From the IMG/VR virus record IMGVR_UViG_3300045999_004446, positions 1 to 36,710 of that record: DNA of 36,710 bases. One strand, given 5' to 3'. The notes beneath the pieces are model-generated. The model had not been told where the DNA came from and searched no databases. It saw only the letters and a program-made list of their open reading frames with translations. Positions 1 through 34,807 of the stretch are shown one piece after another (position 1 is the first letter of the stretch; every line of letters begins with the position of its first letter). Source of the stretch: a virus. A program made the position numbers and the translations under genes.

Positions 1-35
1 GAGAGCGTATTATCTATATCTATTGCATATCTCAT
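1..35 (-). CDS. HAD-family phosphatase, N-terminal fragment cut by window edge
   Basis: Reading left from an ATG at position 35, eleven codons are open to the window edge and give MRYAIDIDNTL. The D-I-D-N-T core matches motif I (DxDxT/V) of haloacid-dehalogenase phosphatases, where the first Asp is the nucleophile, and in many HAD sugar phosphatases this motif lies at the very N-terminus. The start codon overlaps the stop of the upstream cupin gene as ATGA, the junction used repeatedly in this genome, which supports it as a real start. After kinase, nucleotidyltransferase and epimerase genes of ADP-heptose synthesis, a GmhB-type heptose-bisphosphate phosphatase would fit, but eleven residues cannot prove substrate. 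A generic capsule-locus HAD protein is the main alternative. Confidence 0.6.
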   Translation of the reverse strand, partial: MRYAIDIDNTL

Positions 36-379
36 TTGGATGATGGTTCTATTCTATATGTGTCTGCATCAAAATGTTGCGTAGAAACTTCAAAAATTAT
101 CGTATCCTCTAGAGCATGTACTTGGTGTGGATATCCTGGAGCGAGATGAATCACTTCTCCAGCACCAAGCACCTCAATGTGTTTAGTTGCGTTTACTGGT
201 TCAATCCAATGCAATTCGATTTTGCCACTTTGGATATACCAGCTTTCATCTTTCATCAGATGATAATGAAGACTCGAATGTTTCCCACAATCAAACACCA
301 GCAATTTACCACAATACTTTGGGTTATTTGCGAATACAATTTCACGACCCCATGTCTTTTCAACTATTTTTGGTTTCAT
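32..379 (-). CDS. Small cupin protein, sugar-phosphate isomerase/epimerase-like
   Basis: A 115-aa single-domain cupin. Cupin motif 1 is visible as HYHLMKDE (residues 38-45, two His plus Glu as metal ligands) and motif 2 as PGYPHQVHA (81-89). The opening KTWGREIVFAN resembles the C-terminal cupin of mannose-6-phosphate isomerase/GDP-mannose pyrophosphorylase proteins (KPWGxE). It probably binds a metal and acts on or senses a sugar phosphate or nucleotide sugar, but the reaction cannot be assigned. Its ATG lies 20 nt inside the end of the HldD-like gene, and its stop overlaps the next gene's start as ATGA, so it is embedded in the heptose module and likely co-translated with it. Confidence 0.8.
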   Translation of the reverse strand: MKPKIVEKTWGREIVFANNPKYCGKLLVFDCGKHSSLHYHLMKDESWYIQSGKIELHWIEPVNATKHIEVLGAGEVIHLAPGYPHQVHALEDTIIFEVSTQHFDADTYRIEPSSK

Positions 380-1226
380 TTTTTAGTTTCTCATAATAAA
401 TATTTATTCCACTAACCAATGTCTCAGTAGTATCTATCCATCCATTATCCATTGCCTTGCCGATATCAGCAATTGTATTTGTCTGATATTGCTTCTTCAA
501 CTTTTCTGGCATTGCAATTTCAATCTTGGACCCTGCACCAAATGCAGCAATGCATTTATCTGCTACGTCATCAAACGACGATTGAATTCCAGATCCCAAG
601 TCATACACCCCAGGAATTGGATTCTTATATGCATTGAAAAATACTCGACAAACATCATCGACGTAGATAAAATCTCTATTGTATGTGTGAGAGTTCGCGA
701 AGATATGGAGTCTTTCACCATCCTTCAATTGGTTGAACCATTTGAACATCACAGATGCCATATCTCTTTTATGATATTCATTCGGACCATAGACATTGAA
801 CAACCGAAAACAAACACCATGATCGGAGATGTCTTTTTCTGACACTAACTTGGACATGGCATAGAGATTCAATGGACCAGATCCATTTCCATATATTGCA
901 GCAGTAGATGCAAAAAACAATGGAAGTTTCTTTGTTCGGCAAAAATTAGATAACTTTTTGGTAAAATCGATATTATATTTTTGTATTACATCGATGTTGG
1001 TTTCTAGCGTATCTGATATTGCTCCAAAATGAAAAACTGATGTGATTTCCTGATTGAACAAGTCATCATCAAGCACATCATAAGACTTGAAATATTTTGC
1101 TTTATTGTTGTAACGATAAGAATTTTCTTGAAAATCACATAGGATAATATCTTCAATTCCAATAGAATTGAGATAAAGAAGCATTCTGCTTCCTATAAAC
1201 CCAGAAGAACCAGTTACTAATATCAT
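360..1226 (-). CDS. hldD: ADP-L-glycero-D-manno-heptose-6-epimerase-like SDR (HldD-like)
   Basis: A 288-aa extended short-chain dehydrogenase/reductase. Visible motifs are the Rossmann loop GSSGFIG (residues 6-12), GAISDTLE (68-75), which is close to the GAISxTTE of HldD, catalytic Ser/Thr in STAA (107-110), and YxxxK as YAMSK (122-126). The segment FNVYGPNEYHKRDMAS (143-158) is characteristic of HldD, as is RDFIYVDDV further on. HldD interconverts ADP-D,D- and ADP-L,D-heptose, the donor for LPS inner-core heptose. It is slightly shorter than the usual roughly 310 aa. The start overlaps the upstream nucleotidyltransferase stop as ATGA. The preceding HldE-like genes make the HldD assignment more likely than a generic UDP-sugar epimerase. 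Confidence 0.88.
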   Translation of the reverse strand: MILVTGSSGFIGSRMLLYLNSIGIEDIILCDFQENSYRYNNKAKYFKSYDVLDDDLFNQEITSVFHFGAISDTLETNIDVIQKYNIDFTKKLSNFCRTKKLPLFFASTAAIYGNGSGPLNLYAMSKLVSEKDISDHGVCFRLFNVYGPNEYHKRDMASVMFKWFNQLKDGERLHIFANSHTYNRDFIYVDDVCRVFFNAYKNPIPGVYDLGSGIQSSFDDVADKCIAAFGAGSKIEIAMPEKLKKQYQTNTIADIGKAMDNGWIDTTETLVSGINIYYEKLKNETKNS

Positions 1227-1621
1227 AATCTTTCTATTATACTAGTAGATGAATAGTTTTCAAGTCTATTAAATAAAATTAATTTAGAATTATCACATAT
1301 TGCATCAGTCTGACGTATGAAATCTAAATTCCAATCTGAACCTTTCACCACAACATCGGGTTTCAATAAAGCATGAAACTCTTTCAATTCTTCGTGTGTG
1401 TTGAATACTACCACTTCGTCTACAAATCTTATGGATTGTAGTATCTTCTTCCTATCCTCGACAGTGTTGATTGGTCTACTCATTCCTTTTGTCTTCTTGA
1501 CTCTTTCATCGGAATCTATAGCAACGATAAGATAGTCTCCTTGTGTCTTGCAAAACTCAAGAAGTTCCACATGACCCCTATGAATTATATCAAAAACACC
1601 ATTAGTGAAAACAGTCTTCAT
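1223..1621 (-). CDS. hldE2: HldE C-terminal-domain-like nucleotidyltransferase (heptose-1-phosphate adenylyltransferase)
   Basis: A 132-aa cytidylyltransferase-fold protein. It begins MKTVFTNGVFDIIHRGHVEL, with the HxGH nucleotide-binding motif at residues 14-17, and continues with DSDERVKKTKG and VVVKGSDW, as in the C-terminal domain of HldE/RfaE. In the pathway this domain adenylylates heptose-1-phosphate to ADP-heptose. The frame is open 48 nt further upstream, but the ATG at 1621 forms a perfect ATGA overlap with the kinase stop, so I chose that start. Bacterial HldE is often one two-domain polypeptide; here the two activities are separate, coupled genes. A glycerol-3-phosphate cytidylyltransferase (TagD-like) is the main alternative, but the context favours heptose. 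Confidence 0.85.
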   Translation of the reverse strand: MKTVFTNGVFDIIHRGHVELLEFCKTQGDYLIVAIDSDERVKKTKGMSRPINTVEDRKKILQSIRFVDEVVVFNTHEELKEFHALLKPDVVVKGSDWNLDFIRQTDAICDNSKLILFNRLENYSSTSIIERL

Positions 1622-2352
1622 AATTGTGGGACCGATACTCCACGATACTTGACAACATTGGATGCACACTTGTTTGCAAATTCAATGGATGATACTATAT
1701 CACTTGTTTTGAAATATTCAACAACTAATCCTGCTAAAAAAGTATCACCAGCACCAGAAACATCCTGGACATCTACTTTATTCACTGGATAATGTTTATC
1801 TCTATATTCACATCCATTGCTACCCAAAGTATGAATTATCTTATTCTTCATGGTAGGTGTGATTGCATCATATGAATTTCTAAACTCCGTGTCGTTGATC
1901 TTTATATACTTTGCATTATTTGCCCAGGATCCAAGTTTTTTCTTGGTATCTAAAAACACCGTATCGTGATTTGCACAGATGGTTTCAATATCATATTCAG
2001 AGATGAATCCCTTGTCATAATCAGATATCACGATGATTTTATAGGAGTATGATAATTCCTTTATGTTAATGGACTCTTTGCCTTCCACCGAATCAACTCG
2101 AAAAAAAGTATGATTGCTTTTCTTGTGAACGTATCTTGTCTTGGTGACATTGTACCAATTCTTATTCACAATAGCATCACACGAATATCCTAGAGAAATA
2201 ATATTCCTCTGCACATTTTTTGCCATACCAGGATTTTCCGTTGAGTCCAGGACATTCAATACTGGAACGGGTACATCTGGACACAATCTGTTTGAGTCGC
2301 AATATACGAATATATCACGACAAGCATCACCAATAACAAGAATGTCTTTCAT
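1618..2352 (-). CDS. hldE1: HldE N-terminal-domain-like PfkB sugar kinase (heptose-7-phosphate kinase)
   Basis: A 244-aa PfkB/ribokinase-family kinase. RLCPDVPVPVLNV (22-34) matches the R-I-S-P-E-A-P-V-P-V segment typical of HldE, ISDYDKGFI (109-117) matches its LSDYGKG segment, KINDTEF (151-157) is the N-x-x-E region, and DVSGAGDTF (197-205) contains the anion hole and catalytic Asp 203. The enzyme would phosphorylate D-glycero-D-manno-heptose-7-phosphate at C1. It is short against the roughly 320-aa bacterial domain, and the glycine-rich GGAANVA element is altered to NPGMAKNV. ATGA overlaps join it to genes on both sides. Product specificity is inferred from motifs and neighbours. Confidence 0.85.
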   Translation of the reverse strand: MKDILVIGDACRDIFVYCDSNRLCPDVPVPVLNVLDSTENPGMAKNVQRNIISLGYSCDAIVNKNWYNVTKTRYVHKKSNHTFFRVDSVEGKESINIKELSYSYKIIVISDYDKGFISEYDIETICANHDTVFLDTKKKLGSWANNAKYIKINDTEFRNSYDAITPTMKNKIIHTLGSNGCEYRDKHYPVNKVDVQDVSGAGDTFLAGLVVEYFKTSDIVSSIEFANKCASNVVKYRGVSVPQL

Positions 2353-3731: not shown

Positions 3732-4139
3732 TTATCCGTTTGTTGAAATAAAAGCATCTATCTCTTCGTGAGTTGTGAGATTTTCAATTTCTGTTCTTTT
3801 GCTTCTATATGCCGAGATTGCTCCCTGCACAAGAGCGAAGTCAGAACTCTCACCTTGAAACTCCTTTATTAATTCATCATGTACTATTTCATAGGAGTCT
3901 GAATTCAATTGTTGTAGCAACATAGATTTGCGATCTTCAATTGTCAAATCTATAACAGACCATACAATTTCAACAGGAGTTTTTGTAAGATCAAAGGAAT
4001 GTGCTCCTGTTATTTGCCTTCCAGCAATAAGAGTAGGCTCAATTTCTATAGCATCTCTCCAATCACCAGTTGCATTCTCTGGAAGATAATCAAGACATTC
4101 CACTACTTCATCGTTTTCTACCCTAATATGCTTTGGCAT
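3732..4139 (-). CDS. Small hypothetical protein, possible tail-fibre accessory/assembly protein
   Basis: A 135-aa protein I do not recognise firmly. The N-terminus (MPKHIRVENDEVVECLDYLP) is an acidic beta-rich stretch, followed by LIAGRQITGAHSFDL. The second half is predicted helical (DRKSMLLQQLNSDSYE; EIENLTTHEEIDAFIST). Proteins of this size with a beta N-terminus and helical C-terminus commonly follow fibre genes in tailed phages, sometimes as fibre-assembly chaperones, so that role is possible but unproven. The start lies 22 nt inside the end of the sulfotransferase fusion gene. No signal peptide, membrane segment or catalytic motif is seen. Confidence 0.75.
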   Translation of the reverse strand: MPKHIRVENDEVVECLDYLPENATGDWRDAIEIEPTLIAGRQITGAHSFDLTKTPVEIVWSVIDLTIEDRKSMLLQQLNSDSYEIVHDELIKEFQGESSDFALVQGAISAYRSKRTEIENLTTHEEIDAFISTNG

Positions 4140-5908
4140 AGTTTACTCCATTTTGATTTCTTTACAATTCCAAACTGACCCTCTAAATTTTTCTTCAACT
4201 CCGATATAGGATGCTTCCAACATCCAAACTTTTTTTGCCTGAACAACTTTACTGAATCATAGTAAGGTGATTTGTCACCAGGCACAGACCATATGTAATA
4301 GTTCAAGACAGGAACAATTATCCATGTTGGAACTCCCATTGCTCCTGCAAGATGTGCAACACTGGTGCATGATGATATCACAAGATCGCAGCCAGATATA
4401 GCATCTCGTGTTTGTTCCCAATTATTTAGGGGAACTTTCTTGATGAATTCTGGACAATCTTCCTCTCCAGCATCTCTTTGTAAACAAATAAAATCAGCAT
4501 CAATATTCTTTAGAGCATCAAAGAAAGACTTCAGTGGAAATCTACGATTTTGCTCATGTTCGAACTTTGGATTTCCCTGCCAACGAACTCCTATCACGGG
4601 TCGCTTGTTCTTTGGGCTATTTGTTTTTGGAATATAAGGAGAACCATTAATATCTTTATATTCATAACCCAACGGTATGAGAACTGACATGGCTGGAACC
4701 CAAAAATCATGGTATACACCACCAGCAGCGGAGTGTTCTATAATCATCTTTACACCTATGCAGCATTTAACAATCGGAAACAATTCAGCAGAACAAGCAA
4801 CAATAATATCACATCCTCGTCTATTCATGTCTTTGATGTATTTTAAAGCATGAATCTGATCTCCTATTCCACCTTCAAGGTAATATAGGATTGTTCCCAT
4901 ACTCTTCCCATCCCACATTGGTGTTGGTACTGGTGGTCTTGGATTGCCAAAACAGTTCTCATATCGACCCCTAGCCAAACCCTCCATTCCCTCTTGTAAT
5001 CTTCCCTGACGCAAGGCATACCAACCCATGTTGAAGGCAATCTTGTTACATAGAGGATTCTCCTTCTGTGCTTCACAAAGAAGTTTATATGACTCCCCAA
5101 ACTCACCTTTCATCGAAAGTGCAACGGAGTGGTCGATCTTTTTTTTCTTATAGTCACGAACCTCTCCCTTCCAGAATTTTGGTTGGTCGTAACTGTCGAA
5201 GTGCTGTGCTAGAATTTTTCTTGAATCTTGATTATGTTGATATCCTAATCGTGGTGATATCGTATGAAGATTTGGAATTCCCCATGCTGCATCATCTTTT
5301 TCTGCCACAACCTTTGTGTCGATATTTCCAAAATCATATTCAAATGGATCAAGTCCAAGAAACTTATGAATTAGATTCAGTTGTTCCTGTGGAGACTGAA
5401 TAAGATCATCATAGTCAATGAATAATATATTATTTGGCGCAGAGTCATATCCATTTTTCAGTTCAGCATATGATGATTTGAGATGTTGAATCAATTGCGA
5501 AGAGCGAAGAAACTCTGAAACATCGTTTGGTTTTGCAACTCTTACAAATGATGCAGCACAGTCGGCAGTAGATCGAACGGTTGCTATAATCTTTGGATGA
5601 TGACCAAGAACCTTTGTCATTGTTTCCATTATCTGTGGATTCACCCATCCCCTGCTCTTGTCAATGATTACTGATTTCTTCACATCCTTATACTTTGCAT
5701 CAATGACGGATCGAAGCATACGATAGGCTTCTTCCTTCTCTCCACCCTGTGCAACAGTGGTTGGTGAACTTTCCCATGTTGTGCATACAGAGCCAAGAAT
5801 GTCTATAAGACCGCTTGTTGGTGTTGAATGGACTTGAGGGTGCTGATTAAGAAGGGAAGAGAGAACGGTTGAACCACTACGGGGAAGACCACTGAGAAAA
5901 TAAATCAT
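4118..5908 (-). CDS. Sulfotransferase - TPR - GT9-like glycosyltransferase fusion
   Basis: A 596-aa multidomain protein. Residues 1 to about 235 form a PAPS-dependent sulfotransferase: the 5'-phosphosulfate loop GLPRSGST (7-14), the 3'-phosphate-binding segment ATVRSTADCAAS (109-120), and FIDYDDLIQSP with FLGL before the domain end. Residues about 255-320 look like one or two TPR helices (FGESYKLLCEAQKENP; AFNMGWYALRQGRLQEG). Residues about 335-596 resemble TPR-linked GT9/heptosyltransferase-like proteins: LEGGIGDQIHALKY (344-357), VIGVRWQGNP (438-447) and SSCTSVAHLAGAMGVPTW (512-529). The start has a good AAGGAG site. It directly follows the RCC1 fibre gene and precedes the ADP-heptose genes, so sulfation and heptose-like transfer to a surface or virion glycan is plausible. 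Exact substrates are unknown. Confidence 0.85.
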   Translation of the reverse strand: MIYFLSGLPRSGSTVLSSLLNQHPQVHSTPTSGLIDILGSVCTTWESSPTTVAQGGEKEEAYRMLRSVIDAKYKDVKKSVIIDKSRGWVNPQIMETMTKVLGHHPKIIATVRSTADCAASFVRVAKPNDVSEFLRSSQLIQHLKSSYAELKNGYDSAPNNILFIDYDDLIQSPQEQLNLIHKFLGLDPFEYDFGNIDTKVVAEKDDAAWGIPNLHTISPRLGYQHNQDSRKILAQHFDSYDQPKFWKGEVRDYKKKKIDHSVALSMKGEFGESYKLLCEAQKENPLCNKIAFNMGWYALRQGRLQEGMEGLARGRYENCFGNPRPPVPTPMWDGKSMGTILYYLEGGIGDQIHALKYIKDMNRRGCDIIVACSAELFPIVKCCIGVKMIIEHSAAGGVYHDFWVPAMSVLIPLGYEYKDINGSPYIPKTNSPKNKRPVIGVRWQGNPKFEHEQNRRFPLKSFFDALKNIDADFICLQRDAGEEDCPEFIKKVPLNNWEQTRDAISGCDLVISSCTSVAHLAGAMGVPTWIIVPVLNYYIWSVPGDKSPYYDSVKLFRQKKFGCWKHPISELKKNLEGQFGIVKKSKWSKLCQSILG

Positions 5909-5932: not shown

Positions 5933-8900
5933 CTATGTAGTTTCTATTGCAGCACAATTATCTCCCGCACCTCTAGAAATAACCACGGTGCTCCAATTTG
6001 AAGATGTGCCAACTTGGACAGGAGAAGATACATGGTTTGTAAATCTAATAATTTCGGAAAATCCGTTTCTTCCCATACCATACAACAAATTAGATGTATT
6101 TTTTGCCATGTTGTGATTATACGCACTACTTATGTCGTTCCAATTCGTAGCACTTCCCACTTGAACAGGAGATGATCGGTTGGTGGTATCACTAGTACCC
6201 AATCCACCGTATGAATTAAATCCCCATGCCCAAAGAGTTCCACCAGTTTTAATTGCTTTTGTGTCATATCTTCCGATTGAAACTTTACTCCAATCAGTAC
6301 CTGTTCCCACTTGAACAGGAGATGATCGAGTGGTGGCATCACCAAGACCCAATTGACCATTATTATTCCTACCCCACCCCCACAGGGTTCCAGTGGTTTT
6401 CCTAGCCATCGTGGAATTTCCAGCAGTTGATACACTTGACCAATCTGTAGCAGTTCCTACTTGTTTGGGTGAATTGTAATAATTAAAAGTTTGTATTCCT
6501 AATCTTCCGTAACCAGAATTCAAACCAAAAGCATAAAGTTTTCCTGAAGTGTTTATTCCAAAAGATGCACTAGTTCCAACACCAATATTGCTCCAGTCTG
6601 TTTTAGATCCAATTTGCGTTGGTGCAGATCGGTTACTAACATTACCAAGACCCAATTCACCGCCAGTATTTCTTCCCCATGCCCACAGGGTTCCTGTGGT
6701 TTTTAACCCAATTGTATGGAATCTTGCAGAGGAAACTTTACTCCAATTAGTATCTGTTCCCACTTGAACAGGAGATGATCGGTTGGTGGTATTACCAAGA
6801 CCCAATTGGTATTGAGCATTTAGTCCCCATGCCCAAAGAGTTCCATTGGTTTTTATTGCCAATGTACTGGCATAGTTACAGTTAACACTAGCCCAATCCG
6901 TACCTGTTCCCACTTGAACAGGAGATGATCGGTTGGTGGTATCACCAAGACCCAATTGACCAAAATTATTTCTACCCCATGCCCACAGGGTTCCTCCAGT
7001 CTTAACTGCACAAACATGACTACTAATGCCGCAAGATACACTAGCCCAATCAGTACCTGTTCCAACTTGGACAGGAGATGAACGGCTGGTAGTATTGCCA
7101 AGACCCAATTGACCATAGGTATTTCTACCCCATGTCCAAAGAGTTCCAGTGGTTTTTATTGCCGCACAATTTCTGTTTGCAGCAGATACTTTCGACCAAT
7201 CGGTTTGTGTTCCCACTTGAACAGGAGATGATACTGTGACAGCAGTGCCATTTCCCAAAGAACCATATGATCCACTACCCCATGTCCAAAGAGTTCCAGT
7301 GGTTCTTATTGCAGATGCAACAAGATATCCCATTGAAGCCGTAGCCCAATTACTGTCTGTTCCCTGTTGAGTAGGAGAGAACCGTGATACATAACTATAG
7401 ATAAGACCTAAATGATAACTATTATTTCTTCCCCAAACCCAAAGTGTTCCAGTAGTTTTCACTGCTATTGTTGAGCCTCCAAATCCCGCATTTCCTCCTA
7501 CCAAAGACCAATTCGTATCTGTTCCCACTTGGACAGGAGAACTAGTACGATCACGGGCAAGCGTTCCTAAACCAAGTTTTCCATAATTATTATTCCCCCA
7601 TGCCCAAAGAGTTCCAGTGGTTTTTACTGCAAATGATTGAGCATCATTAGTTGCTAGACCACCAGCAGAAACGCTTGCCCAATTGCTATCACTTCCTATC
7701 TGTACTGGTGATGACCTTGTAACAAAACTATCATTCCCTAATTGTCCATGTGCACCTCTTCCCCATGCCCATAGAGTTCCATTTGTTTTTACAGCAAGTG
7801 TATGATATGGACTAGAAGAAGTGCTTGCCCAATTCGTATCTGTTCCCACTTGAACAGGAGATGATCTACTATTATTGTTACCTGAACCAAGTCTTCCATA
7901 TGTACCTAATCCCCAAGTCCAAAGAGAACCATTAGTTTTTATTGCAACAGTGAATCTGTCTGTTGTTGCAGCAGAACCAATAGAAGACCAATCCGTACCA
8001 GAGCCTATTTGGACAGGAGAAGACTGATTTACTTCATTTCCAGTTCCCAATACCCCACTAAAGTTCTTTCCCCATGCCCAAAGAGTTCCTGTAGTCTTAA
8101 TTCCAAAAGTATGATCTCGTTTTGCTGTAAAAGAAGACCATGTATCATTTGATATTAGTGTTGGTTTGCTTATGCGTAAATTGTATGCTCTTCCATTTTC
8201 AAACACCAACAGACCATATGCACTTGAACCCCATGCCCAAAGAGTTTTATTTGATCTTCTTGCTATTGATGCATTCCTTCCAGCACCAACATTTATCCAA
8301 TCGGTGTTCGCTCCCACTTGAACAGGAGATGATCTATTTACTTGATCTCCAACTCCAAGTTCACCTCTTAGCACATTAGCACCAAAACTCCAAAGAGTTC
8401 CAGTGGTTCTTATTGCGTGGCTGTGAGTGTATCCTGCATCTACAATCGACCAATTCGTATCTGTTCCAACTTGGACAGGAGATGATCGGTTGTTAGTATC
8501 ACGGAGTCCAAGACGACCATAACCATTATTTCCCCATGCCCAAAGAGTTCCATTTGATTTTACAGCAAGTGTATGTTGTCTTCCAGATGAAACTTTACTC
8601 CAATTCGTATCTGTTCCAACTTGGACAGGAGATGATCGGTTGGTGGTATCACCAAGACCCAATTGACCAGCATTATTTCTACCCCATCCCCAAAGAGTTC
8701 CAGTAGTTTTTAAAGCAATTGTATGATATTCTCCAACAAAAACGCTTGCCCAATCCGTACCTGTTCCAACTTGGACAGGAGATGAACGGCTGGTAGTATT
8801 GCCAAGACCCAATTGACCATAGGTATTTCTACCCCACGCCCAAAGAGTTCCATTGGTTTTTATTGCAAATGATGCTCTTCCACCAGCAGAAACGCTTGCC

Positions 8901-9238
8901 CAATCCGTACCTGATCCAACTTGGACAGGAGATGAAAGGCTGGTAGTAGTACCAGAACCCAATTGACCGAAGCCTCCATAACCCCAAGACCAGAGACTAC
9001 CTCCTGTTTTTGTTGCTAAAATATGACCGTTACCAAAAGAAACCACATTCCAATCTGTGGCAGTTCCAACTTGGACAGGAGAAGAAACATTTTGAGCAGG
9101 CACAACCCCAGTTGTAGAATTTCCCACTTGACCAGCATTATTGTTTCCCCAAATAAACAATTTTCCATTTGTTGGAATAGCAGCAACAATTTTCCTGATG
9201 AAAGTTAAGATACCAGCCTTGAAGCTTGGAATTATCAT
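5933..9238 (-). CDS. Giant RCC1-type beta-propeller repeat protein, putative fibre/adhesin
   Basis: An 1101-aa protein that, after about 25 residues, consists entirely of roughly 51-residue RCC1 (regulator of chromosome condensation) repeats. The unit reads GTLWAWGxNxxGQLGLG, then SSPVQVG, then TDWxxVxxG, then xAIKTT. I count 21 copies of the D/N-W or T-W position. RCC1 propellers have seven blades, so 21 suggests three closed propellers. The chain begins in the middle of a blade (NGKLFIWG) and ends with CAAIETT, which would complete it, as in velcro closure. No enzyme motif is seen. Its place at the end of the fibre operon, with its start overlapping the 314-aa fibre gene as ATGA, argues for a virion surface role such as receptor binding. 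Repeat 7 is degenerate (RISKPTLISNDTW). Confidence 0.85.
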   Translation of the reverse strand: MIIPSFKAGILTFIRKIVAAIPTNGKLFIWGNNNAGQVGNSTTGVVPAQNVSSPVQVGTATDWNVVSFGNGHILATKTGGSLWSWGYGGFGQLGSGTTTSLSSPVQVGSGTDWASVSAGGRASFAIKTNGTLWAWGRNTYGQLGLGNTTSRSSPVQVGTGTDWASVFVGEYHTIALKTTGTLWGWGRNNAGQLGLGDTTNRSSPVQVGTDTNWSKVSSGRQHTLAVKSNGTLWAWGNNGYGRLGLRDTNNRSSPVQVGTDTNWSIVDAGYTHSHAIRTTGTLWSFGANVLRGELGVGDQVNRSSPVQVGANTDWINVGAGRNASIARRSNKTLWAWGSSAYGLLVFENGRAYNLRISKPTLISNDTWSSFTAKRDHTFGIKTTGTLWAWGKNFSGVLGTGNEVNQSSPVQIGSGTDWSSIGSAATTDRFTVAIKTNGSLWTWGLGTYGRLGSGNNNSRSSPVQVGTDTNWASTSSSPYHTLAVKTNGTLWAWGRGAHGQLGNDSFVTRSSPVQIGSDSNWASVSAGGLATNDAQSFAVKTTGTLWAWGNNNYGKLGLGTLARDRTSSPVQVGTDTNWSLVGGNAGFGGSTIAVKTTGTLWVWGRNNSYHLGLIYSYVSRFSPTQQGTDSNWATASMGYLVASAIRTTGTLWTWGSGSYGSLGNGTAVTVSSPVQVGTQTDWSKVSAANRNCAAIKTTGTLWTWGRNTYGQLGLGNTTSRSSPVQVGTGTDWASVSCGISSHVCAVKTGGTLWAWGRNNFGQLGLGDTTNRSSPVQVGTGTDWASVNCNYASTLAIKTNGTLWAWGLNAQYQLGLGNTTNRSSPVQVGTDTNWSKVSSARFHTIGLKTTGTLWAWGRNTGGELGLGNVSNRSAPTQIGSKTDWSNIGVGTSASFGINTSGKLYAFGLNSGYGRLGIQTFNYYNSPKQVGTATDWSSVSTAGNSTMARKTTGTLWGWGRNNNGQLGLGDATTRSSPVQVGTGTDWSKVSIGRYDTKAIKTGGTLWAWGFNSYGGLGTSDTTNRSSPVQVGSATNWNDISSAYNHNMAKNTSNLLYGMGRNGFSEIIRFTNHVSSPVQVGTSSNWSTVVISRGAGDNCAAIETT
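5950..9130 (-). repeat. Tandem array of about 21 RCC1-encoding units of roughly 150 bp
   Basis: The coding sequence repeats with a period of about 150-160 bp. Several units are nearly identical over long stretches; for example the block around 6905-6965 recurs around 8615-8670, and the block around 7065-7130 recurs around 8760-8830. The element GGTACTGATTGG (or variants) marks each unit. Such similarity should allow homologous recombination within the gene and so expansion, contraction or shuffling of blades. Confidence 0.85.
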
Positions 9239-10179
9239 CCTGTTAGTCCTCCAGCAACATTGAATACATTGCTGCTGTAGGAAATGATACTTACCGCAGC
9301 ATGTTGTCCTGCTGTATTTAGTTTGTTTTCAAAACTATTGAGTGTTGTTCCAGACCCAGTGATGCCAATTGCAGCAGTTCCTGTTTGAATCAAAGTGGCA
9401 TTGAATCCAACAGGAAGACCAGATGGAATGGTCAAGGTTCCTGCTGAACTTGTATTCCAAACTATAATCTCACCATTGTCTGTCGAGAGCAAAGTGTATG
9501 TTGTTCCAGTTCGTGAATTGATTGCTCCAGAACCAACTCTAAATCCATTTTCAGCATAAAGATATGAAGCAGTTGTAATACCACCAGATGCAGAAATACC
9601 AGAAGTAGATGTTATCAATGCACTGAATGTTGCACCCGCGATTGTGGGTGATATATTCATTGTGGTGGTATTGAAGTTTATCATGTTGGAACCAGTAGAA
9701 CTGATTCCGTTGTAGAAGGTTAGAGTACCATCACTATTATTGATAAATGTATTAAATGTTGAAGTTGTTGAATTTCCAAGTTTAATAGCACCAGCTCTTG
9801 CCTGACCAGATGTTGATACTTTCAAAGCACCAGTAGAAGAATGCTGGACATGTAATGGATCAACATTTGCTGTCAGATTTGAGATAAAAACAGTGGCACT
9901 ATTGAATGAAGAACCAGCAGATGCTGAAATTCCATTATTAAAACTTTGAAGCGATGTAAAGACATTTGCTGCTTGTGTATATGCAACACCTAGAATAGCA
10001 CCAGTAGAACCATCTATACTAGTAACTACATTATTCTGATCGTGTAAAGTAACTACACCCTCTACAGCATTTCCAATAAAGATCTTTTTATCAGTAATGT
10101 TAACAGCCATTTCACCAAAGGATAATCCAGATGGAGCAGATCCTGCTGTTACTGAGTTCTTGATCTTAATTTTTGCCAT
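9235..10179 (-). CDS. Tail fibre / virion structural protein with IKIK...GLxFGE N-terminal module
   Basis: A 314-aa protein rich in Ser, Thr, Gly and Ala. The N-terminus KIKIKNSVTAGSAPSGLSFGEMAV is the same module that opens the 555-aa neighbour (IKIKRTSGSTTPTGLTFGELAY), typical of fibre and structural proteins of T4-like marine phages. It is followed by a VTSIDGSTGAILG element. The middle has beta-helix-like low complexity (FNTFINNSDGTLTFYNG), and the C-terminal 100 residues (TYTLLSTDNGEIIVWNTSSAGTL) resemble a common fibre-tip domain. An exact TATAAATA late-promoter motif lies 32 nt upstream, inside the end of the coiled-coil gene. Its stop overlaps the RCC1 gene start. A structural role is likely, but the receptor is unknown. 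Confidence 0.82.
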   Translation of the reverse strand: MAKIKIKNSVTAGSAPSGLSFGEMAVNITDKKIFIGNAVEGVVTLHDQNNVVTSIDGSTGAILGVAYTQAANVFTSLQSFNNGISASAGSSFNSATVFISNLTANVDPLHVQHSSTGALKVSTSGQARAGAIKLGNSTTSTFNTFINNSDGTLTFYNGISSTGSNMINFNTTTMNISPTIAGATFSALITSTSGISASGGITTASYLYAENGFRVGSGAINSRTGTTYTLLSTDNGEIIVWNTSSAGTLTIPSGLPVGFNATLIQTGTAAIGITGSGTTLNSFENKLNTAGQHAAVSIISYSSNVFNVAGGLTG

Positions 10180-10181
10180 GA

Positions 10182-10607
10182 TTATGCTTGCTTATCTTTA
10201 GTCTTCTTATTATTTATAGAAGTTTGATATGCTTCGACTTGTGCTGCCAATACATCGTGCTTTCCCTTTAAAGTGTTATATTCAGTATGAATACTTTCAC
10301 GAACACTCGTTTCTCGTTTCAAATCATTTTCTAACTTTTGAATCAATGCATCTTTACTGGTGTTTTCAGAATTAATTAAACTGATTTGAGTCTTTAATTC
10401 AGTTATTCTATTATTTTTTTGATCTAGTTCATTTTTTATGGAATCAACATGACCAATTTGATTTTTGTAATAATTTTCAATGTCTTTTGTTTTTGCCTGT
10501 TCAACCAATAAAGAAACTTCCAGAAACAGATTGTTTATCTGCAATTCTTGAAGTTTCTTTTGAAGTGTTGGAATAACAATCGTTTCTTGATAATTCACAG
10601 TATTCAT
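10182..10607 (-). CDS. Small coiled-coil protein in fibre operon
   Basis: A 141-aa protein of unknown function. From about residue 55 to 130 it shows continuous heptad-type helix (NRITELKTQISLINSENTSK and following), with Leu and Ile at repeating a/d positions and many Lys/Glu, so a coiled-coil oligomer is expected. The N-terminal third is also helical (TLQKKLQELQINNLFLEVSL), and the C-terminus is a short Lys-rich tail. It sits between two fibre genes with an AAAGGTAA ribosome-binding site. A trimerisation or assembly partner for the fibres is a reasonable guess; nothing in the sequence proves it. Confidence 0.75.
   Translation of the reverse strand: MNTVNYQETIVIPTLQKKLQELQINNLFLEVSLLVEQAKTKDIENYYKNQIGHVDSIKNELDQKNNRITELKTQISLINSENTSKDALIQKLENDLKRETSVRESIHTEYNTLKGKHDVLAAQVEAYQTSINNKKTKDKQA
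10211..10218 (-). promoter_or_regulatory. T4-type late promoter motif TATAAATA
   Basis: The minus strand reads TATAAATA exactly, the T4 late promoter -10 element recognised by gp55-RNA polymerase. It lies within the last codons of the coiled-coil gene, 32 nt upstream of the 314-aa fibre start, a suitable distance for a short late leader. Confidence 0.65.
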
Positions 10608-10625
10608 AATTTACCTTTATATTAA

Positions 10626-12293
10626 TTAATAAGATCCACCATCAACCGTTCCAAGAGATATAGTACCACTACTATTAGTGAATTCTCCAGAAGCAAAACT
10701 AAATGTTCCCATATTTAGACCGCTAGTTATAGTGGCAAAGTTTACAGTGACAGCGGCAGACTCTGCTCCAGAATTTGCTACTGTAAGACCAGTGCTGGAG
10801 GTAGATAGAGTTGCAACATAATTTCCAGTCGTATCAGTTCCAAGAGCAACAGAATTTGCTGCTATGGTCGCGGTGATATTAATGTCAGCAGATCCGTTGA
10901 ATGATGCAGATCCACTTACATCTCCAGTAAGTCCAATTGATCTTGCTGTCTGTAGGGTTGATGCTGTTGAAGCATTTCCAGTAAGTGCTGCGGTAATTGT
11001 TCCAGCAGAGAAATTACCAGATGCATCTCTTGCAACTATTTGAGAGACAACGTTGTTTGATGTTGCTCCAGACGTAACTGTATAAGTTGCATTCTCTCCA
11101 GAACCAGCAACTGAAAGTCCTATTCCAGATACAGCAACTGCGGCAACGTAATCACCAGTTGTATCAGTGCCAAGTGCAACCGAGTTTGCAGCTATGGTTG
11201 TGGTAAGTGTTATATTTCCACTACCGTCAAAGGTAACTCCAGTTGCGGTAACATCACCAGAAAGAGCAATCGTAGCTCCAGGTGTCAGACGAGTCGCGGC
11301 ATATGCAGTAAATCCAGCTGCACTTGCGTCAATCCATGTTGGTTGTGATGTTCCACCATTCGACTTAATAATATAACCAGAAGTTCCTAGTGTATTTGGA
11401 ATTAGAACATAACCAGTATGATCTTCGAAGATAACTTGTTTATTATTTGTAGTTGAAAGTGATGAAAATACATGATTCCCAAGAGTGTTAACATTTTGAT
11501 TAGCTCTTACGCTTAATCCATAAGTTTCAATCATGGCAAGAGTAGATCCAGCCTGTGTTGCATCATTTAAAATATTTACACGTTCGTATGCTCCAAAAAC
11601 CGCACCTTGACCAGGAATTCTGAATCCAAAAAATCCAGTTTTACCTATTGTGTTTCCATCATCATAATAAGTAAATGCCACACCTCTTGATTTACCACCA
11701 TCAGATGCTGAAATTGGAACACCACCAGATGTACCAAGAACTATAATTGGATCGTCAACAGTCATAGTATTGCTATTGACTGTGGTTGATGTACCATTTA
11801 CCGTAAGATTACCAGTGACTGTAAGGTCTGTGGTGACATTCAATGAACCAGGAACAGTTACAGTGGATGGAAGAGAAAGAGTGACAGCACCAGTAGATCC
11901 ACTTACAGAAATTTGATTGGAAGTTCCAGTGAGACTCTGTACACCACTGTTACTAATATTGATGTTTTTACCAGCAGCAGATGCTATAAAAATACCAGTT
12001 CCAGCAACTAGTTGTACAGCACCAGTAACACCATTTATGTCAGTTACAAGACCAGCACCGCCAGTTACAATAGAATCCACATATGTTTTTACTGCATTCT
12101 GTGATGGAATTTTATTATCACTGGTTCCCAGTGCGGTAGATGTGTCAACTTCAGCACCTATTCGAAGTGCAGGATCACCCGCAGTCTGACCGATATAGAT
12201 TGATTTGATACCTTGGACATACGCAAGTTCACCAAAGGTAAGTCCTGTTGGAGTGGTAGACCCACTTGTTCTTTTAATTTTAATAGTTGACAT
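10626..12293 (-). CDS. Tail fibre / virion structural protein (555 aa)
   Basis: A low-complexity Ser/Thr/Gly/Val-rich fibre protein. The N-terminal module STIKIKRTSGSTTPTGLTFG (2-21) and YIGQTAGDPALRIG are shared with marine T4-like phage structural proteins. Around residue 100 comes DINGVTGAVQLVAGTGI. Next is VTGNLTVNGTSTTVNSNTMT with DDPIIVLG, then a compact region (GFFGFRIPGQGAVFGAYER). Two internal copies of IAANSVALGTDTTGxYVA indicate duplication near residues 365-405 and 475-515. The chain ends GTVDGGSY, a C-terminus shared with two neighbouring fibres. The start follows a duplicated Shine-Dalgarno sequence. A fibre role is well supported by composition and modules. Confidence 0.82.
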   Translation of the reverse strand: MSTIKIKRTSGSTTPTGLTFGELAYVQGIKSIYIGQTAGDPALRIGAEVDTSTALGTSDNKIPSQNAVKTYVDSIVTGGAGLVTDINGVTGAVQLVAGTGIFIASAAGKNINISNSGVQSLTGTSNQISVSGSTGAVTLSLPSTVTVPGSLNVTTDLTVTGNLTVNGTSTTVNSNTMTVDDPIIVLGTSGGVPISASDGGKSRGVAFTYYDDGNTIGKTGFFGFRIPGQGAVFGAYERVNILNDATQAGSTLAMIETYGLSVRANQNVNTLGNHVFSSLSTTNNKQVIFEDHTGYVLIPNTLGTSGYIIKSNGGTSQPTWIDASAAGFTAYAATRLTPGATIALSGDVTATGVTFDGSGNITLTTTIAANSVALGTDTTGDYVAAVAVSGIGLSVAGSGENATYTVTSGATSNNVVSQIVARDASGNFSAGTITAALTGNASTASTLQTARSIGLTGDVSGSASFNGSADINITATIAANSVALGTDTTGNYVATLSTSSTGLTVANSGAESAAVTVNFATITSGLNMGTFSFASGEFTNSSGTISLGTVDGGSY

Positions 12294-12295
12294 TT

Positions 12296-12317
12296 ATAAT
12301 TCCTTTATAATTCCTTT
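12296..12317 (-). promoter_or_regulatory. Tandemly duplicated ribosome-binding site
   Basis: On the minus strand an 11-bp unit AAAGGAATTAT occurs twice back to back directly before the ATG at 12293. Each copy has an AAAGGA Shine-Dalgarno core, at about 8 and 19 nt from the start. The same leader (AAAGGAATTATA) precedes the gene starting at 21682. The upstream copy overlaps the stop of the 381-aa fibre gene. Confidence 0.7.
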
Positions 12318-13460
12318 AAAAAGTTCCGCCATCTATATATATGCTTCCGTTTACCCTTAAAGAACCCGATATTACGACATCATTGGGCAGTCCTATTTGA
12401 ATAGATGGGCAACTTGTGGTAATTTCAACCTCGTTTGGGGTTCCAGTTATTCCAATATTACCAGTACATCCATTTATAGTTTTTAGTTGGGGTGCTGTTC
12501 CTTGGGTAGTTCCATCAGAAAATTTTAATCCACCGTTTATAAGTTCTAGTGAAGTAGTTCCATCCCCATATATGGAAGTATACGCATCAATTGTCAATGT
12601 TTCTGAATTTATACTTACGGTCGAAAGAGCACTATCTGTAGCAATTCTTAATATATCTGCCTTTTTGCCTAGTGTCGCACCATAAGCATAAACTTTAAAT
12701 GCTCCAGCTATACCATCACTAACACCAAAATTTAAACTCGGATTTGTTCCAAGAATTCCCCAACTGTTCAAAATAACTGCTAAGTCAACACCATCAACTG
12801 TTCCATCTAGATTTACATCTCCTAGAAAGGCATTAGATAATAAAGACATCTTAACCCATGCATTTGGACTTAATGCAGTAGTATAATAATAATATCCACC
12901 AAAACCATTTCCATCATTAACGACCCATGCTAGATCACCATCCTGTGGGTTTGGTGAATTGTTTAAAGCAGTAACATCAGGGTATGATCTTAATAATTTG
13001 TAACCTGGTTCGAGAGATACACTGACATTTCCTACACCAGTGGTTGGACTTGCAGTTAATCCACCAGTTCCAGTAACAGAAAGCACACCAGTATTTGAAT
13101 AGGTAAAAATATTGTTTAAATAAGTTAATCCTATTCCAGTTCCACCAGCAAATGTAATACCACCAGTAAATCCATTTATTTTTGAAACATAAGGTCCAGA
13201 AATTCCAGAAGAAGTGGAAGCAAACTCTACAAGATTAGAGTCGGTAATTCCATCGCGATACCAATACTTGTATGACTCACCACCAACAATAATACGAACT
13301 TCCATTGATTGAAAACGAATTGCACTTGGAATAGAAGTATTTGCTGCTGTAAGTGCTTCGGCAATAGTGCCACCAGTATACGGACCAGACCAACTGTCTA
13401 CTGGCAGTGGGTTTACTGGTTGTATACCGAATGGTAATTGGAATCCGTTTGTTAATGCCA

Positions 13461-13461
<1 letters not shown>
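12316..13461 (-). CDS. Tail fibre protein with dockerin-like calcium-binding loop
   Basis: A 381-aa fibre protein. The N-terminus (MALTNGFQLPFGIQPVNPLP) leads into EVRIIVGGESYKYWYRDG, a small domain often found at the head of such fibres. KINGFTGGITFAGGTGIGL (94-112) is the recurrent fibre module. At residues 214-235 the chain reads DVNLDGTVDGVDLAVILNSWG, which has the Asp/Asn spacing of a type-I dockerin or EF-hand-like calcium loop (DxNxDGxVDxxDL). A second INGCTGNIGITG module follows, and the protein ends VNGSIYIDGGTF. The start shares its A with the stop of the collagen-like gene (TAATG) after a GAGG site. A receptor-contacting or assembly role is inferred. Confidence 0.82.
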
Positions 13462-15590
<2,129 letters not shown>

Positions 15591-15591
15591 T

Positions 15592-16020
15592 TTAAATTCT
15601 TGTTATTTGTTTTGAAATGTCAAATGTGCCTTCTATGAGTCTCTTAACATCGCCTGATGTGTTTTTGATTTTAAAATCATAAAAATGCTTACCTGGAATT
15701 ACTCTAGTCATTGTGGCATCATCAATTTTAAACAATATACCACCAGTTTCACCAGTTCCATTAATAGAAGTATTGAAACTTATTCCACCAACACCAAGAA
15801 CTCCATTTACTCCAGGAGTAAAGTCTCCAGTAATTCCGCCACCAGTTACACCATTTGTGGTGACATATAATAATGCTTTTTCATCTTTTAAAGATCTTCT
15901 AACTTGAAAATCGCCACTATAACCAGATAGATTAACTGGTACACCATTTAACTTCCAATTGAAGTATAACTTAAACGTGGTTCCTTGTTCTGCATATATG
16001 TCGTATCTTGCTGCTGACAT
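15592..16020 (-). CDS. BppU-like N-terminal baseplate/fibre protein (142 aa)
   Basis: A 142-aa, beta-rich protein. It begins with [19 protein letters not shown] and continues [17 protein letters not shown], a pattern seen in the N-terminal domain of lactococcal-type BppU and in many phage proteins encoded beside fibre genes. The end reads [20 protein letters not shown] and then [13 protein letters not shown], which completes the small sandwich fold. It would be an adaptor between baseplate and fibre. A good AGGAGA ribosome-binding site precedes it, and a GATAAATA late-promoter-like motif lies about 51 nt upstream. The next gene begins 2 nt later. Fold assignment is by pattern only. Confidence 0.75.
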
Positions 16021-16029
16021 TGAAATCTC

Positions 16030-17358
16030 CTAGTATAATCCACCATCGATGGTTAATGCATTTACTGATTTATTTATCCACGAATTAGCAGTTGAATCAT
16101 AATATAAAACATCATTACCACATGCTCCAGTTATAATAACATCTGTCAAATCATCTAATGTTAGAGATACCGAACCACCACCACTAGAAGTGCTTCTAAA
16201 ACTTCCCGCTTGTATTATAAGAGCATCTGATGTATTCAGAAGACTTGTTGCATTGCCTTTAACTATTAAATATGCAGCAAATACAGCATTTGTTTTTGTG
16301 TTTTCAATCTCGCTAAATTCTTCTAGATTGATATTTGCTGCTGCTTCTGCAATACTGATATAAGTAGTTCTTCCATAATAAACACCAAGTAACGTTGGTG
16401 TGTTTGGATAATAAAATATTCTTTGAATGGTGTATTTACCACCAGGAACTGATTGTAATGTACCAGAACCATTATCATAATGTGTTGGATCTATTACTGT
16501 TTGGTTTGGGACAGTTACGAACGTACCAGCAGTAGCACCTCTATAATATCTAAAAAATATACAATCGGTATAAGCATTATCTGAAACTACACTCGGATCG
16601 TCACTATCATTGATCCAATTTCTTCCAAGACTAAATGCCTTACCAGAAGATCTGTTTAATTTTAAATTTGCACCATTTGCGCTTATGGTATGACCAGATA
16701 TCTTAATTGGACCGAATGCTCGTATAAATTGCTCGTACTGCTTGTCGGTGGCATAAGCAACATTTGGATTGGTTCTTGCTAAATTTATAAAGGTTCTAGA
16801 TGGATGCACCAACTGACCAATTATAATGGTTTCTTCTACCTGCTGATCTGTATAATATTCTGTTCTTTGTTGTAATGTACCAGAACCATCAATATATAAC
16901 CAAGTTGTGTCAGATGTTGCTAAGTTTGTAACCGCAACACCTGTTTGTCCAGGCCATGACACATAATTTAATGTTGGTACTGGATCTAAAGTATAAGATG
17001 ACCCTGAAGCATGTATTTGTCCTCTACCAGCAGTTATGTTGAATGTTGCAGTATTTCCAGCATTAATGCTTATGATTCCACCGTGCAAAAGACCAGTTGC
17101 CAGATTAGATGCGTAAATACTTCCAGAAACACCATAAAGCGTTTCTGATGAAATGGTGAATGTTTTTCCTGTTATCGATATAGAAACATCTTGACCAGCA
17201 GACAAACCGATAGCACCAGTAATTCCATTTATAGAATAAACCTCAGCTGAGGTTGCATCAGCAGGATCATATCTTTCCCACCCATACCCATTAAATAACC
17301 ACACACGACCATTGTTGTCGTGTGTGGCGCCTTGAACTGGATCTATTGGAAATGCCAT
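16030..17358 (-). CDS. Tail fibre / virion structural protein (442 aa)
   Basis: The first gene of the fibre operon. The N-terminus (MAFPIDPVQGATHDNNGRVW, then LFNGYGWERYD) is a short module typical of fibre heads. YSINGITGAIGLSAGQDVSI (41-60) is the recurrent fibre element. A central folded domain follows (about 90-390), including FNITAGRGQIHASGSSYTLD and LVHPSRTFINLARTNPNVAY, which recalls phage receptor-binding-protein necks. Near the end LDDLTDVIITGACGNDVLYY and DSTANSWINKS form a widespread tail-tip motif, and the chain ends TIDGGLY. An exact TATAAATA late promoter lies just upstream. A virion structural role is strongly supported. Confidence 0.83.
   Translation of the reverse strand: MAFPIDPVQGATHDNNGRVWLFNGYGWERYDPADATSAEVYSINGITGAIGLSAGQDVSISITGKTFTISSETLYGVSGSIYASNLATGLLHGGIISINAGNTATFNITAGRGQIHASGSSYTLDPVPTLNYVSWPGQTGVAVTNLATSDTTWLYIDGSGTLQQRTEYYTDQQVEETIIIGQLVHPSRTFINLARTNPNVAYATDKQYEQFIRAFGPIKISGHTISANGANLKLNRSSGKAFSLGRNWINDSDDPSVVSDNAYTDCIFFRYYRGATAGTFVTVPNQTVIDPTHYDNGSGTLQSVPGGKYTIQRIFYYPNTPTLLGVYYGRTTYISIAEAAANINLEEFSEIENTKTNAVFAAYLIVKGNATSLLNTSDALIIQAGSFRSTSSGGGSVSLTLDDLTDVIITGACGNDVLYYDSTANSWINKSVNALTIDGGLY
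16071..16078 (-). promoter_or_regulatory. Possible late promoter motif GATAAATA
   Basis: One mismatch from the T4 TATAAATA late element, in the position that varies in the NATAAATA motif described for cyanophages. It lies inside the end of the 442-aa fibre gene, 51 nt before the 142-aa gene. It may be chance in AT-rich DNA. Confidence 0.35.
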
Positions 17359-33076: not shown

Positions 33077-34807
33077 TCAGTTATTTATCATTCTACTAAA
33101 ATTATTCTTTTTCTCAAAAGAGATTATCGTAGAAAATTTGTCAACCAATTGATCTGCTTTATGACTGATCACATATACATTTGCTTTGTCGCTTATGATC
33201 TTTAGTAATTTCATGAGATCGTCCATACCGACACCATCAAGTGAAGAATCAAAAACCTCGTCTAGAATAAGCAAATTACAATTTACACTATTCTTGAGTC
33301 GTGCTACCTCACGCCATGCAAGGAGCAATGCCAGATCTATACGCATCTTCTCGCCTTCACTAAAATTCATATAGGAAAACTCATCGCGATATCTTGATTT
33401 GATCTGCTCATTGAATTCTTCATCCATATGGAACTGCACGAAGAAATCCATCGAAGATAAGAATTTATTGATGTACTTGTTCATGTGTGGAAGATAATAT
33501 TTTATAATCTTTGTCTTCACACCACCATCGCGAAGAAGTTCGTTGGCAAATTCATGATACATTAATTCTTCGGAATGAAGATTGCGTTCTTCTTCAAGTG
33601 CTACAAATCCACCTTCAAGAAGTTTTAGTTTTTCCTTTTCATCCACAATATTATTTTTAATCGTGGATTTCTTAGTTGATGATTTAATTCTTTCAATTTC
33701 TTTCTTAAGCATCTCAATCTCTCTGTTGACACCATTTGTATATGACAGAGATTTTGATGCTCTTTCAAGTTGTAATTCCAACATCTCAACATTCTGCGTA
33801 TTGTCTTTTAACGCACTGTTTACATGTTCGATCTGATCATCAATATTTGAAATTTCATAATTTGTAGTCAGGATTTTTTCCTTCTTCATCTTTTCTTCAA
33901 TGGGTTGACTACAGGTTGGGCATTTGCAATTTTCTTTAAAGAAAACAATCTCTTGTTGCTTTTGCTTTTTATTTGCACCAAACTCAGAAATTATAGAGTT
34001 ATATTTCTTTGATTTGGATTGACATTCTTTGATGCCATTTTTAAGATATTGAATATCAGTTTCTATAGCATTTAGAGTAAGATTCTCAGAAAGAAGAGAG
34101 TAATTATGATGAAGAATCTTATCCTCTAGTTCTTTAATTCTATCGGAAACATCTTCATCTTCTTCTGAGTTCTTCTTTTCCAGAGTTGAAATATAATTTC
34201 TCTGAATTGATATCTTGCTCTTTTCCAATTCAATTTTAGAATTCAATTCCTTGATTGTTTCCTTAAGTGAAATAATCTTTCCCTTAAGTACGATATTCAT
34301 GGTGCTGAATATATTGATATCAAGAATATTTTCAATGACTGATCGTCGGTCTGCTGCACTCAACTGCATGAATGGCACAAAGGATGAACTACCGAGAATG
34401 ACAACCTGAGTGAACGTCTTATAGTTCATCTTTAGTATTTGTTGTTCAAGAATATCCTGATAATCAAGACTCTTTGCTTCTTGATCAATTATCGTTCCGT
34501 TTTTATAAATCTCAAATATTCTTGGACCGATGCCTCTTCGAACCATGAACTTATCAGCACCCTTTGAGAATTCAATTTCAACTAGACATCCCTTTTCATT
34601 GATTGAGTTGACCAGTTGTGGTATGTTTATTTTTCTAAAAGGTTTACCAAACAAAGCAAAGGTAATGGAGTCTAGAAATGCAAAAGACTTTCCACTTCCA
34701 TTGTTACCACAAATTAAAGTTGTATTATTCTTGTCTAGTTCGATTTCGGTAAAGGTATTGCCGAAAGATCCAAAGTTTTTAAATCTTACTTTTTCAAATT
34801 TAATCAT
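33077..34807 (-). CDS. 46: Recombination endonuclease subunit gp46 (Rad50-like SMC ATPase)
   Basis: A 576-aa SMC/Rad50-family ATPase. Walker A is GNNGSGKS (35-42), a long coiled coil follows (about 170-460) broken by the zinc-hook CKCPTCSQP (around 295), then the ABC signature NFSEGEKMRID (about 480) and Walker B NLLILDEVFD with the D-loop SSLDG. It partners gp47 to resect DNA ends for recombination-dependent replication and host DNA breakdown. Length is close to T4 gp46 (560 aa). The ATG overlaps the gp47 stop as ATGA. Confidence 0.96.
   Translation of the reverse strand: MIKFEKVRFKNFGSFGNTFTEIELDKNNTTLICGNNGSGKSFAFLDSITFALFGKPFRKINIPQLVNSINEKGCLVEIEFSKGADKFMVRRGIGPRIFEIYKNGTIIDQEAKSLDYQDILEQQILKMNYKTFTQVVILGSSSFVPFMQLSAADRRSVIENILDINIFSTMNIVLKGKIISLKETIKELNSKIELEKSKISIQRNYISTLEKKNSEEDEDVSDRIKELEDKILHHNYSLLSENLTLNAIETDIQYLKNGIKECQSKSKKYNSIISEFGANKKQKQQEIVFFKENCKCPTCSQPIEEKMKKEKILTTNYEISNIDDQIEHVNSALKDNTQNVEMLELQLERASKSLSYTNGVNREIEMLKKEIERIKSSTKKSTIKNNIVDEKEKLKLLEGGFVALEEERNLHSEELMYHEFANELLRDGGVKTKIIKYYLPHMNKYINKFLSSMDFFVQFHMDEEFNEQIKSRYRDEFSYMNFSEGEKMRIDLALLLAWREVARLKNSVNCNLLILDEVFDSSLDGVGMDDLMKLLKIISDKANVYVISHKADQLVDKFSTIISFEKKNNFSRMINN

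Follow-up and report, generated by a model that had tools for sequence, protein, structure and literature searches.

A 21-unit RCC1 protein behind a tail-fibre gene of a T4-like phage: a candidate tip adhesin of three tandem propellers

What is a protein built of 21 RCC1 repeats doing among the tail genes of a phage, and how would such a chain fold? The question is raised by a gene at positions 5933..9238 of a 36,710-base IMG/VR contig of a T4-like phage (record IMGVR_UViG_3300045999_004446; the whole of this stretch is called the window below). The original prediction had given this open reading frame (ORF) without a strand; we confirmed the ORF and placed it on the minus strand, where it starts with ATG and encodes 1101 amino acids (aa), with 21 units of ~50 aa (range 50-55 aa). 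The reading that best accounts for our results, to which we give a probability of roughly 0.72, is that the gene product is the fibre-tip receptor-binding protein (RBP) of the phage, consisting of three tandem seven-bladed RCC1 propellers on a short anchor. Within this reading, the partition into rings is more certain than the exact place of the protein on the virion.

The 21 units and their probable grouping in sevens

As originally predicted, the protein has 21 units: the motif G-x-L-[WYF]-x-[WFM]-G is present 21 times (at aa 25, 80, 130, 180, 230, 280, 331, 384, 437, 487 and 542 for units 1-11, and at aa 597, 648, 698, 749, 799, 849, 899, 950, 1000 and 1050 for units 12-21), a second conserved Trp (T-[DN]-W) is found in 21/21 units, and a hidden Markov model (HMM) built from the unit returns 21 domains. 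We recognised the RCC1 family by ~50-aa repeats with G-x-L-W-x-W-G, G-Q-L-G, S-P-V, W and G-x-x-H-T, together with a score above the curated Pfam cut-off. The window protein is a member of this RCC1 repeat / RCC1-like domain family, matching PF25390 (WD40_RLD/RCC1-like) at E=1.3e-296 (982 bits vs a cut-off of 150) and PF00415 (RCC1) at E=8e-171 (555 bits vs 21.7, in 19 stretches), E-values that rule out a chance origin of the array. Collapse or expansion of the array as an assembly artefact is likewise unlikely, because no exact repeat within it is longer than 80 bp and an independent contig, L083, also gives 21 units.

Judged from the window sequence alone, 3 x 7 is arithmetic only. Units seven apart have a mean identity of 0.496, and the range over offsets is 0.43-0.53; thus no 7-unit super-periodicity was found within the protein. 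As identity at offset 7 is the same as at other offsets, nothing points to a 7-unit block having been triplicated recently, and triplication of a 7-unit ancestor was rejected as a recent event. A degenerate seventh unit, proposed earlier as the border between the first two propellers, is indeed present: unit 7 (aa 331-383; 8090..8248, minus strand) reaches only 28 bits with the unit HMM vs 32-85 for the rest, making it the most degenerate unit and the putative end of propeller 1, and it is degenerate too in L083 (21 bits; 21 units) and L171 (44 bits; 14 units). It had also been suggested that the first and last pieces of the chain close one unit. The register does fit, the first unit being without its first half and the last stopping after AIETT, but this is no evidence for a triple propeller, because each ring of a tandem triple closes within itself.

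The relatives tell more. We collected 153 distinct complete phage ORFs with at least 3 units from viral contigs and isolate phages, clustered at 90% identity, and counted their units, including a few imputed from spacing: 108 have 7, 8 have 14, 8 have 21 and one has 28. Among arrays of at least 10 units, 17/28 are multiples of seven vs 4 expected (binomial p=1.9e-8). The longest spacing falls at the 7|8 border in 5/8 of the 14-unit proteins (p=1e-4), reaching 145 aa in L130, and in the 21-unit L051 the spacings are 43-56 aa except precisely at the 7|8 and 14|15 borders, where they widen to 71 and 72 aa. Moreover, mean unit bit scores are low at units 1 and 7 of the 7-unit proteins (n=105), at 1, 7, 8 and 14 of the 14-unit proteins, and at 1, 7, 8 and 21 of the 21-unit proteins. 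Because counts are quantised at 7/14/21, linkers lie at 7|8 and 14|15, and ring-end units are degenerate, a closed ring of seven is most likely the building block, and the window protein would have three, with a second border that we infer. Putative propeller 1 would then comprise units 1-7 (aa 25-383; 8090..9166), as indicated by the motif, the relatives, the unit scores and a VIA match on the low-confidence model described below; putative propellers 2 (units 8-14, aa 384-748; 6995..8089) and 3 (units 15-21, aa 749-1101; 5936..6994) follow from the partition seen in relatives (all on the minus strand). The three propellers first proposed are thus well supported by the relatives, but neither by the window sequence alone nor by AlphaFold2.

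The structure prediction that had been suggested as a check was run on the full chain. AlphaFold2 with the single sequence gave a predicted local distance difference test (pLDDT) score of 35 and was unusable. We therefore describe the model made with ten relatives, picked at array length so as not to impose a partition; 7- and 14-unit relatives were dropped from the alignment, as MAFFT scattered their units over the 21. This low-confidence model (pLDDT 59) shows roughly four strands in each unit, places a helix at residues 6-14, within the N-terminal stretch, and gives RCC1/UVR8-like matches: the best solved structures found by Foldseek are UVR8, HERC, RPGR and RCC1, and VIA aligns model residues 23-368 to UVR8 32-381 (Z 15.4, root mean square deviation 4.0 A), a span that sets units 1 to 7 against one complete seven-bladed protein. 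In BFVD, the closest match comes from an uncultured Caudovirales phage and is an RCC1 protein of 1077 aa, which shows that databases already contain RCC1 proteins of such length; the BFVD matches also include a 'DNA condensation protein' (385 aa) of GAP32.

Several results weigh against three sequential rings. The model itself, with a predicted template modelling score (pTM) of 0.44 beside its pLDDT of 59, does not resolve the rings; other VIA rows use both chain ends (24..1101), and in places the model pairs the N-terminus with the C-terminus, so ring closure in it is ambiguous. At the 14|15 border of the window protein, neither adjoining unit is degenerate (84 bits for unit 14, 83 bits for unit 15), and 28/153 ORFs are off the series (3-6, 8, 12, 13, 15, 19, 20, 26, 40 and 55 units), counts that arise partly from degenerate or missed units, many of these ORFs being divergent arrays only partly detected by the HMM. 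The rows that span the whole chain, the missing 7-unit periodicity and the unmarked 14|15 border would fit a ring closed between the N- and C-terminus around inserted rings, or an open superhelix. We consider both quite unlikely, since single-ring (7-unit) and double-ring proteins stand on the same anchor and in the same slot (see below), and linkers interrupt the arrays of L051, L130, L129, L014 and L010 at 7|8, and that of L051 also at 14|15; an open superhelix, moreover, would have no need of multiples of seven.

Some arrays in the collection deserve separate mention. Two calls, of 8 units in L035 and 15 in L010, were HMM artefacts, inspection giving 7 and 14. L091 and L106 carry neighbouring RCC1 genes in tandem with ~21, 8 and 19 units (the L106 contig, at 372 kb, is of jumbo-phage size), and L098 has neighbouring genes with ~19 and 21 units plus a cut-off third; the 8- and 19-unit counts of this group do not fit multiples of seven and may stem from a single 28-unit array that was split. 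Giant arrays in single ORFs are found in L095 (1849-10461; ~55 units, 2870 aa) and L094 (760-6891; ~40 units, 2043 aa). Finally, a 6-unit protein (L031:2280-3239) has the same ends as the 7-unit L015:2288-3397, which may reflect a natural deletion or an assembly collapse.

An anchor and an exchangeable slot behind the fibre gene

Directly upstream of the RCC1 gene lies a tail-fibre gene (9235..10179, minus strand; 314 aa, starting MAKIKIKNS), which overlaps the start of the RCC1 gene by 4 bp. The RCC1 protein, previously described as a phage fibre, is not itself one, as it has neither a shaft nor the N-domain of a fibre. It is a protein in its own right, and in relatives its slot is occupied by other tip-like proteins. 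In those relatives that share the fibre's last domain (ending AGQHAAVSIISYSSNVFNVAGGLTG), the gene that follows mostly has this 4-bp overlap at its start (as in the window, L083, L084, L087 and L171) and opens with MIIPS. The stretch of the window protein before its RCC1 units is 22-24 residues long (MIIPSFKAGILTFIRKIVAAIPTN), and the anchor itself is aa 1-22 (MIIPSFKAGILTFIRKIVAAIP; beginning MIIPSFKAGI; 9173..9238, minus strand), in which MIIPS and G9 are invariant in 13/13 aligned proteins.

What stands behind this anchor varies. RCC1 units number 21 in the window and L083 (1090 aa), 14 in L171 (733 aa) and 7 in L084 (373 aa) and L087 (371 aa). L178, L180, L184, L185 and L186 have a glycine-rich protein of 251-253 aa in the same place, and L172-L176 have other short proteins or domains. 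The two glycine-rich proteins that were tested, from L178 and L184, match Gly_rich_2 (PF21722; E=2e-16 and 3e-14), and those of L180, L185 and L186 are of the same sequence type. Searches of isolate phages gave no match for the upstream fibre protein or the Gly_rich_2 slot protein. The fibre end of L085 is also related to that of the window, and there no MIIPS gene follows.

This arrangement recalls gp38 of T2/S16/PP01-type phages, a separate fibre-tip RBP whose N-terminus docks on gp37 and whose receptor-binding part is hypervariable (PMC12892980). Like gp38, the window gene lies directly behind a fibre gene and encodes a conserved N-terminus, the presumed docking part, and a hypervariable body. 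Unlike gp38, which is a polyglycine-II sandwich, its body consists of 21 RCC1 repeats, and its anchor is 22 aa of a different sequence; given an RCC1 body instead of a polyglycine sandwich, the window protein resembles gp38 in position and presumed role without being its homologue. The Gly_rich_2 protein that fills the same slot in relatives is comparable to gp38 by its place.

Divergence, virion association and presumed role

Comparison with L083, the closest relative found, revealed a sharp difference in conservation along the locus. Downstream DNA is 92.4% identical over 2637 bp, and the junction formed by the fibre's C-terminal domain and the anchor (9173..9644, minus strand; 410 bp at the 3' end of the fibre gene and 66 bp at the start of the RCC1 gene) is 86.4% identical, whereas the RCC1 body is 52% identical at the protein level. 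A fast-changing body between a conserved junction and conserved downstream genes is the pattern that a receptor-binding module with a constant docking part would be predicted to show.

Within the body, one-to-one descent of units between the window and L083 was rejected: identity is 0.533 in register vs 0.497 off register, and since only 2/21 units match best in register, the units appear to have been reshuffled or homogenised. By this comparison, unit content seems scrambled, with the count of 21 kept. An 80-bp stretch in unit 3 (8757..8836, minus strand) has an exact copy in unit 14 (7053..7132, minus strand), the two units sharing 94% DNA identity over 38 codons, which suggests that units were exchanged recently by gene conversion. 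In a set of 1444 units, variability is highest at unit positions 8, 10, 11, 36, 41 and 42. Positions 41-42 align with the W-R of the UVR8 G-W-R-H-T motif, which we take to sit on the dimer-interface face of UVR8; given this placement, the variable positions probably lie along a single face of each ring.

The original prediction considered RCC1 propellers striking in a phage. In fact, RCC1 arrays are common in phages (41 isolate records) and have already been detected in virions: three RCC1 proteins in that of E. coli phage W70 by electrospray ionisation tandem mass spectrometry (PMC11370258) and an RCC1-type protein in that of GAP32 by mass spectrometry (PMC5259590). RCC1 arrays are, moreover, joined to tail domains elsewhere. 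A single ORF of L067 (3733-9351; 1872 aa) combines a T4-type baseplate wedge subunit (phrog_17744, E=4.5e-53; PF23786, E=3.6e-12) with an RCC1 array, and single ORFs fuse such arrays to tail-fibre N-terminal modules in L052 and L070 and to a minor-tail/fn3 module in L009. The N-terminal region of the RCC1 ORF of Pseudomonas phage SeaP2 matches several tail-fibre PHROGs, with PF03906 (T7 tail fibre) just under the cut-off, and in cyanophages S-SRM01 and BUCT-ZZ01 RCC1 genes lie beside annotated tail-fibre genes.

Such findings could also be explained by a virion protein of RCC1 propellers that decorates the capsid, the tail whiskers or the baseplate and is not a fibre-tip adhesin: the virion RCC1 proteins cited above are without a known position, and L067 ties the array to a baseplate wedge subunit. 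We regard this as unlikely for the window protein, whose gene sits behind a fibre gene with a 4-bp overlap, whose anchor is conserved together with the fibre's last domain while the body diverges, and whose slot is common to the tip-like Gly_rich_2 proteins.

The databases suggest another role, that of an intracellular protein organising DNA or chromatin. PHROG names such families by homology ('regulator of chromosome condensation; DNA metabolism'), the authors of the phAPEC6 study proposed a DNA-ordering role (PMC7247149), and the pI of the window protein is 10. However, the first ~424 positions of phrog_4219, which bears this name, match the tail-fibre-like region of SeaP2, and the label is therefore misleading. 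Furthermore, the gene is located in a fibre cluster, with nothing in its setting that favours such a role, its body is hypervariable next to conserved neighbours, RCC1 arrays are attached to tail domains in other phages, and UVR8 and HERC domains are better matches than RCC1 itself in both sequence and structure. An intracellular DNA-organising function is thus very improbable.

For a fibre-tip adhesin, we infer the following arrangement. The anchor (aa 1-22) would attach to the C-terminal domain of the fibre whose gene lies immediately upstream, and the rest of the chain would fold as three tandem seven-bladed propellers (units 1-7, 8-14 and 15-21), whose variable loop positions would form binding surfaces turned towards the host envelope. 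The receptor may be an anionic surface glycan or protein, a class that suits the pI of 10. The slot would be modular, given that in relatives the same anchor holds one to three propellers or else unrelated domains. Units would be exchanged and diverge fast, with their number kept to multiples of seven, since no other number of blades closes a ring. Three further points stand on the negative side of this adhesin reading: the contact between anchor and fibre is deduced from conservation only, a pI of 10 would also suit nucleic-acid binding, and L177 has the same fibre end and then no MIIPS protein.

Extended to the T4-like phages of the window group as a whole, the adhesin reading would describe an exchangeable tip slot, in which a 22-residue anchor carries whole RCC1 rings (1, 2 or 3 x 7) or a glycine-rich domain, blades are recombined while ring closure fixes their count, and receptor specificity changes by way of repeats under the label 'regulator of chromosome condensation'. 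We hold the chances of this wider picture to be about evenly balanced.

Other RCC1 proteins and neighbouring genes

The window protein belongs to the same repeat family as other phage RCC1 proteins (phrog_4219, 7220 and 16766; S-SRM01 gp335/337/344; W70_237-239; GAP32_001), which are often encoded by several genes beside tail fibres and, in W70 and GAP32, occur in virions. Unlike the window protein, they mostly have one propeller and are annotated under chromosome condensation or DNA metabolism; no anchor or slot is described for them in the papers found, and our literature search found no paper joining RCC1, receptor binding protein and phage. Chains of several rings are known from surface proteins of bee-gut Bifidobacterium, which have two to four domains of ~seven RCC1 repeats (PMC4449606). 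These are extracellular and diversifying; unlike the window protein they are bacterial and cell-wall anchored, with Flg_new repeats and LPxTG.

Among eukaryotic proteins, RCC1, UVR8, HERC1/HERC2 and RPGR have the seven-bladed fold presumed for the window protein, the unit consensus aligns throughout, and UVR8 is the best solved sequence match (phmmer E 7e-49). Three RCC1-like domains also occur in HERC2 (4l1m is listed as its first, 7q40 as its second and 3kci as its third); by the chain numbering of the matches, they lie far apart in a huge chain, whereas the window rings are apparently in direct tandem. Unlike the window protein, the eukaryotic RCC1-like proteins are intracellular regulators or photoreceptors. 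The role of RCC1 proper (Ran exchange, nucleosome binding) is implausible here, given the phage context and the better matches of UVR8 and HERC.

As far as the papers found show, a phage tip slot with a common anchor, a 7/14/21 series, alternation with Gly_rich_2 and scrambling of units at constant count is new. The label 'regulator of chromosome condensation' and the category of DNA metabolism are attached to many phage genes; judging by the slot, the fusions, the divergence pattern and the published proteomes of virions, many of these genes may well encode tail adhesins. If the adhesin reading is true, host-range prediction that ignores these genes misses RBPs. In addition, the 7/14/21 series offers a clear case of a fold's closure number limiting the evolution of a repeat array, and the 22-aa anchor a directly testable rule for modular tip exchange.

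The tail-fibre and structural genes upstream of the RCC1 gene span 9235-17358. Beyond the fibre gene they include a coiled-coil gene (10182-10607; 141 aa) and a tail-fibre/structural cluster (10626..17358, minus strand) encoding proteins of 555, 381, 709 (collagen-like), 142 and 442 aa. Within this cluster, the protein at 12316-13461 (minus strand) has a dockerin-like calcium-binding motif (FLGDVNLDGTVDGVDLAVILNSWG; Pfam Dockerin_1 E=0.0035, below the cut-off), and the fibre protein at 13461-15590 (minus strand) carries collagen-like repeats (PF01391). At 33077-34807, the window has a gene 46% identical to the recombination endonuclease (gp46-type) gene of cyanophages, e.g., S-IOM18.

Directly downstream of the RCC1 gene, a domain search identified a sulfotransferase-domain gene (4118..5908, minus strand; 596 aa), whose product has a long C-terminal extension in addition to the domain; a sulfotransferase-domain gene also stands behind the RCC1 gene in L083, L084, L087 and L171. 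Sugar-metabolism genes follow, and at 32-2352 (minus strand) four adjoining genes, judged by eye, resemble an ADP-heptose type sugar pathway, with a cupin, an HldD-like epimerase, and an HldE-like nucleotidyltransferase and kinase.

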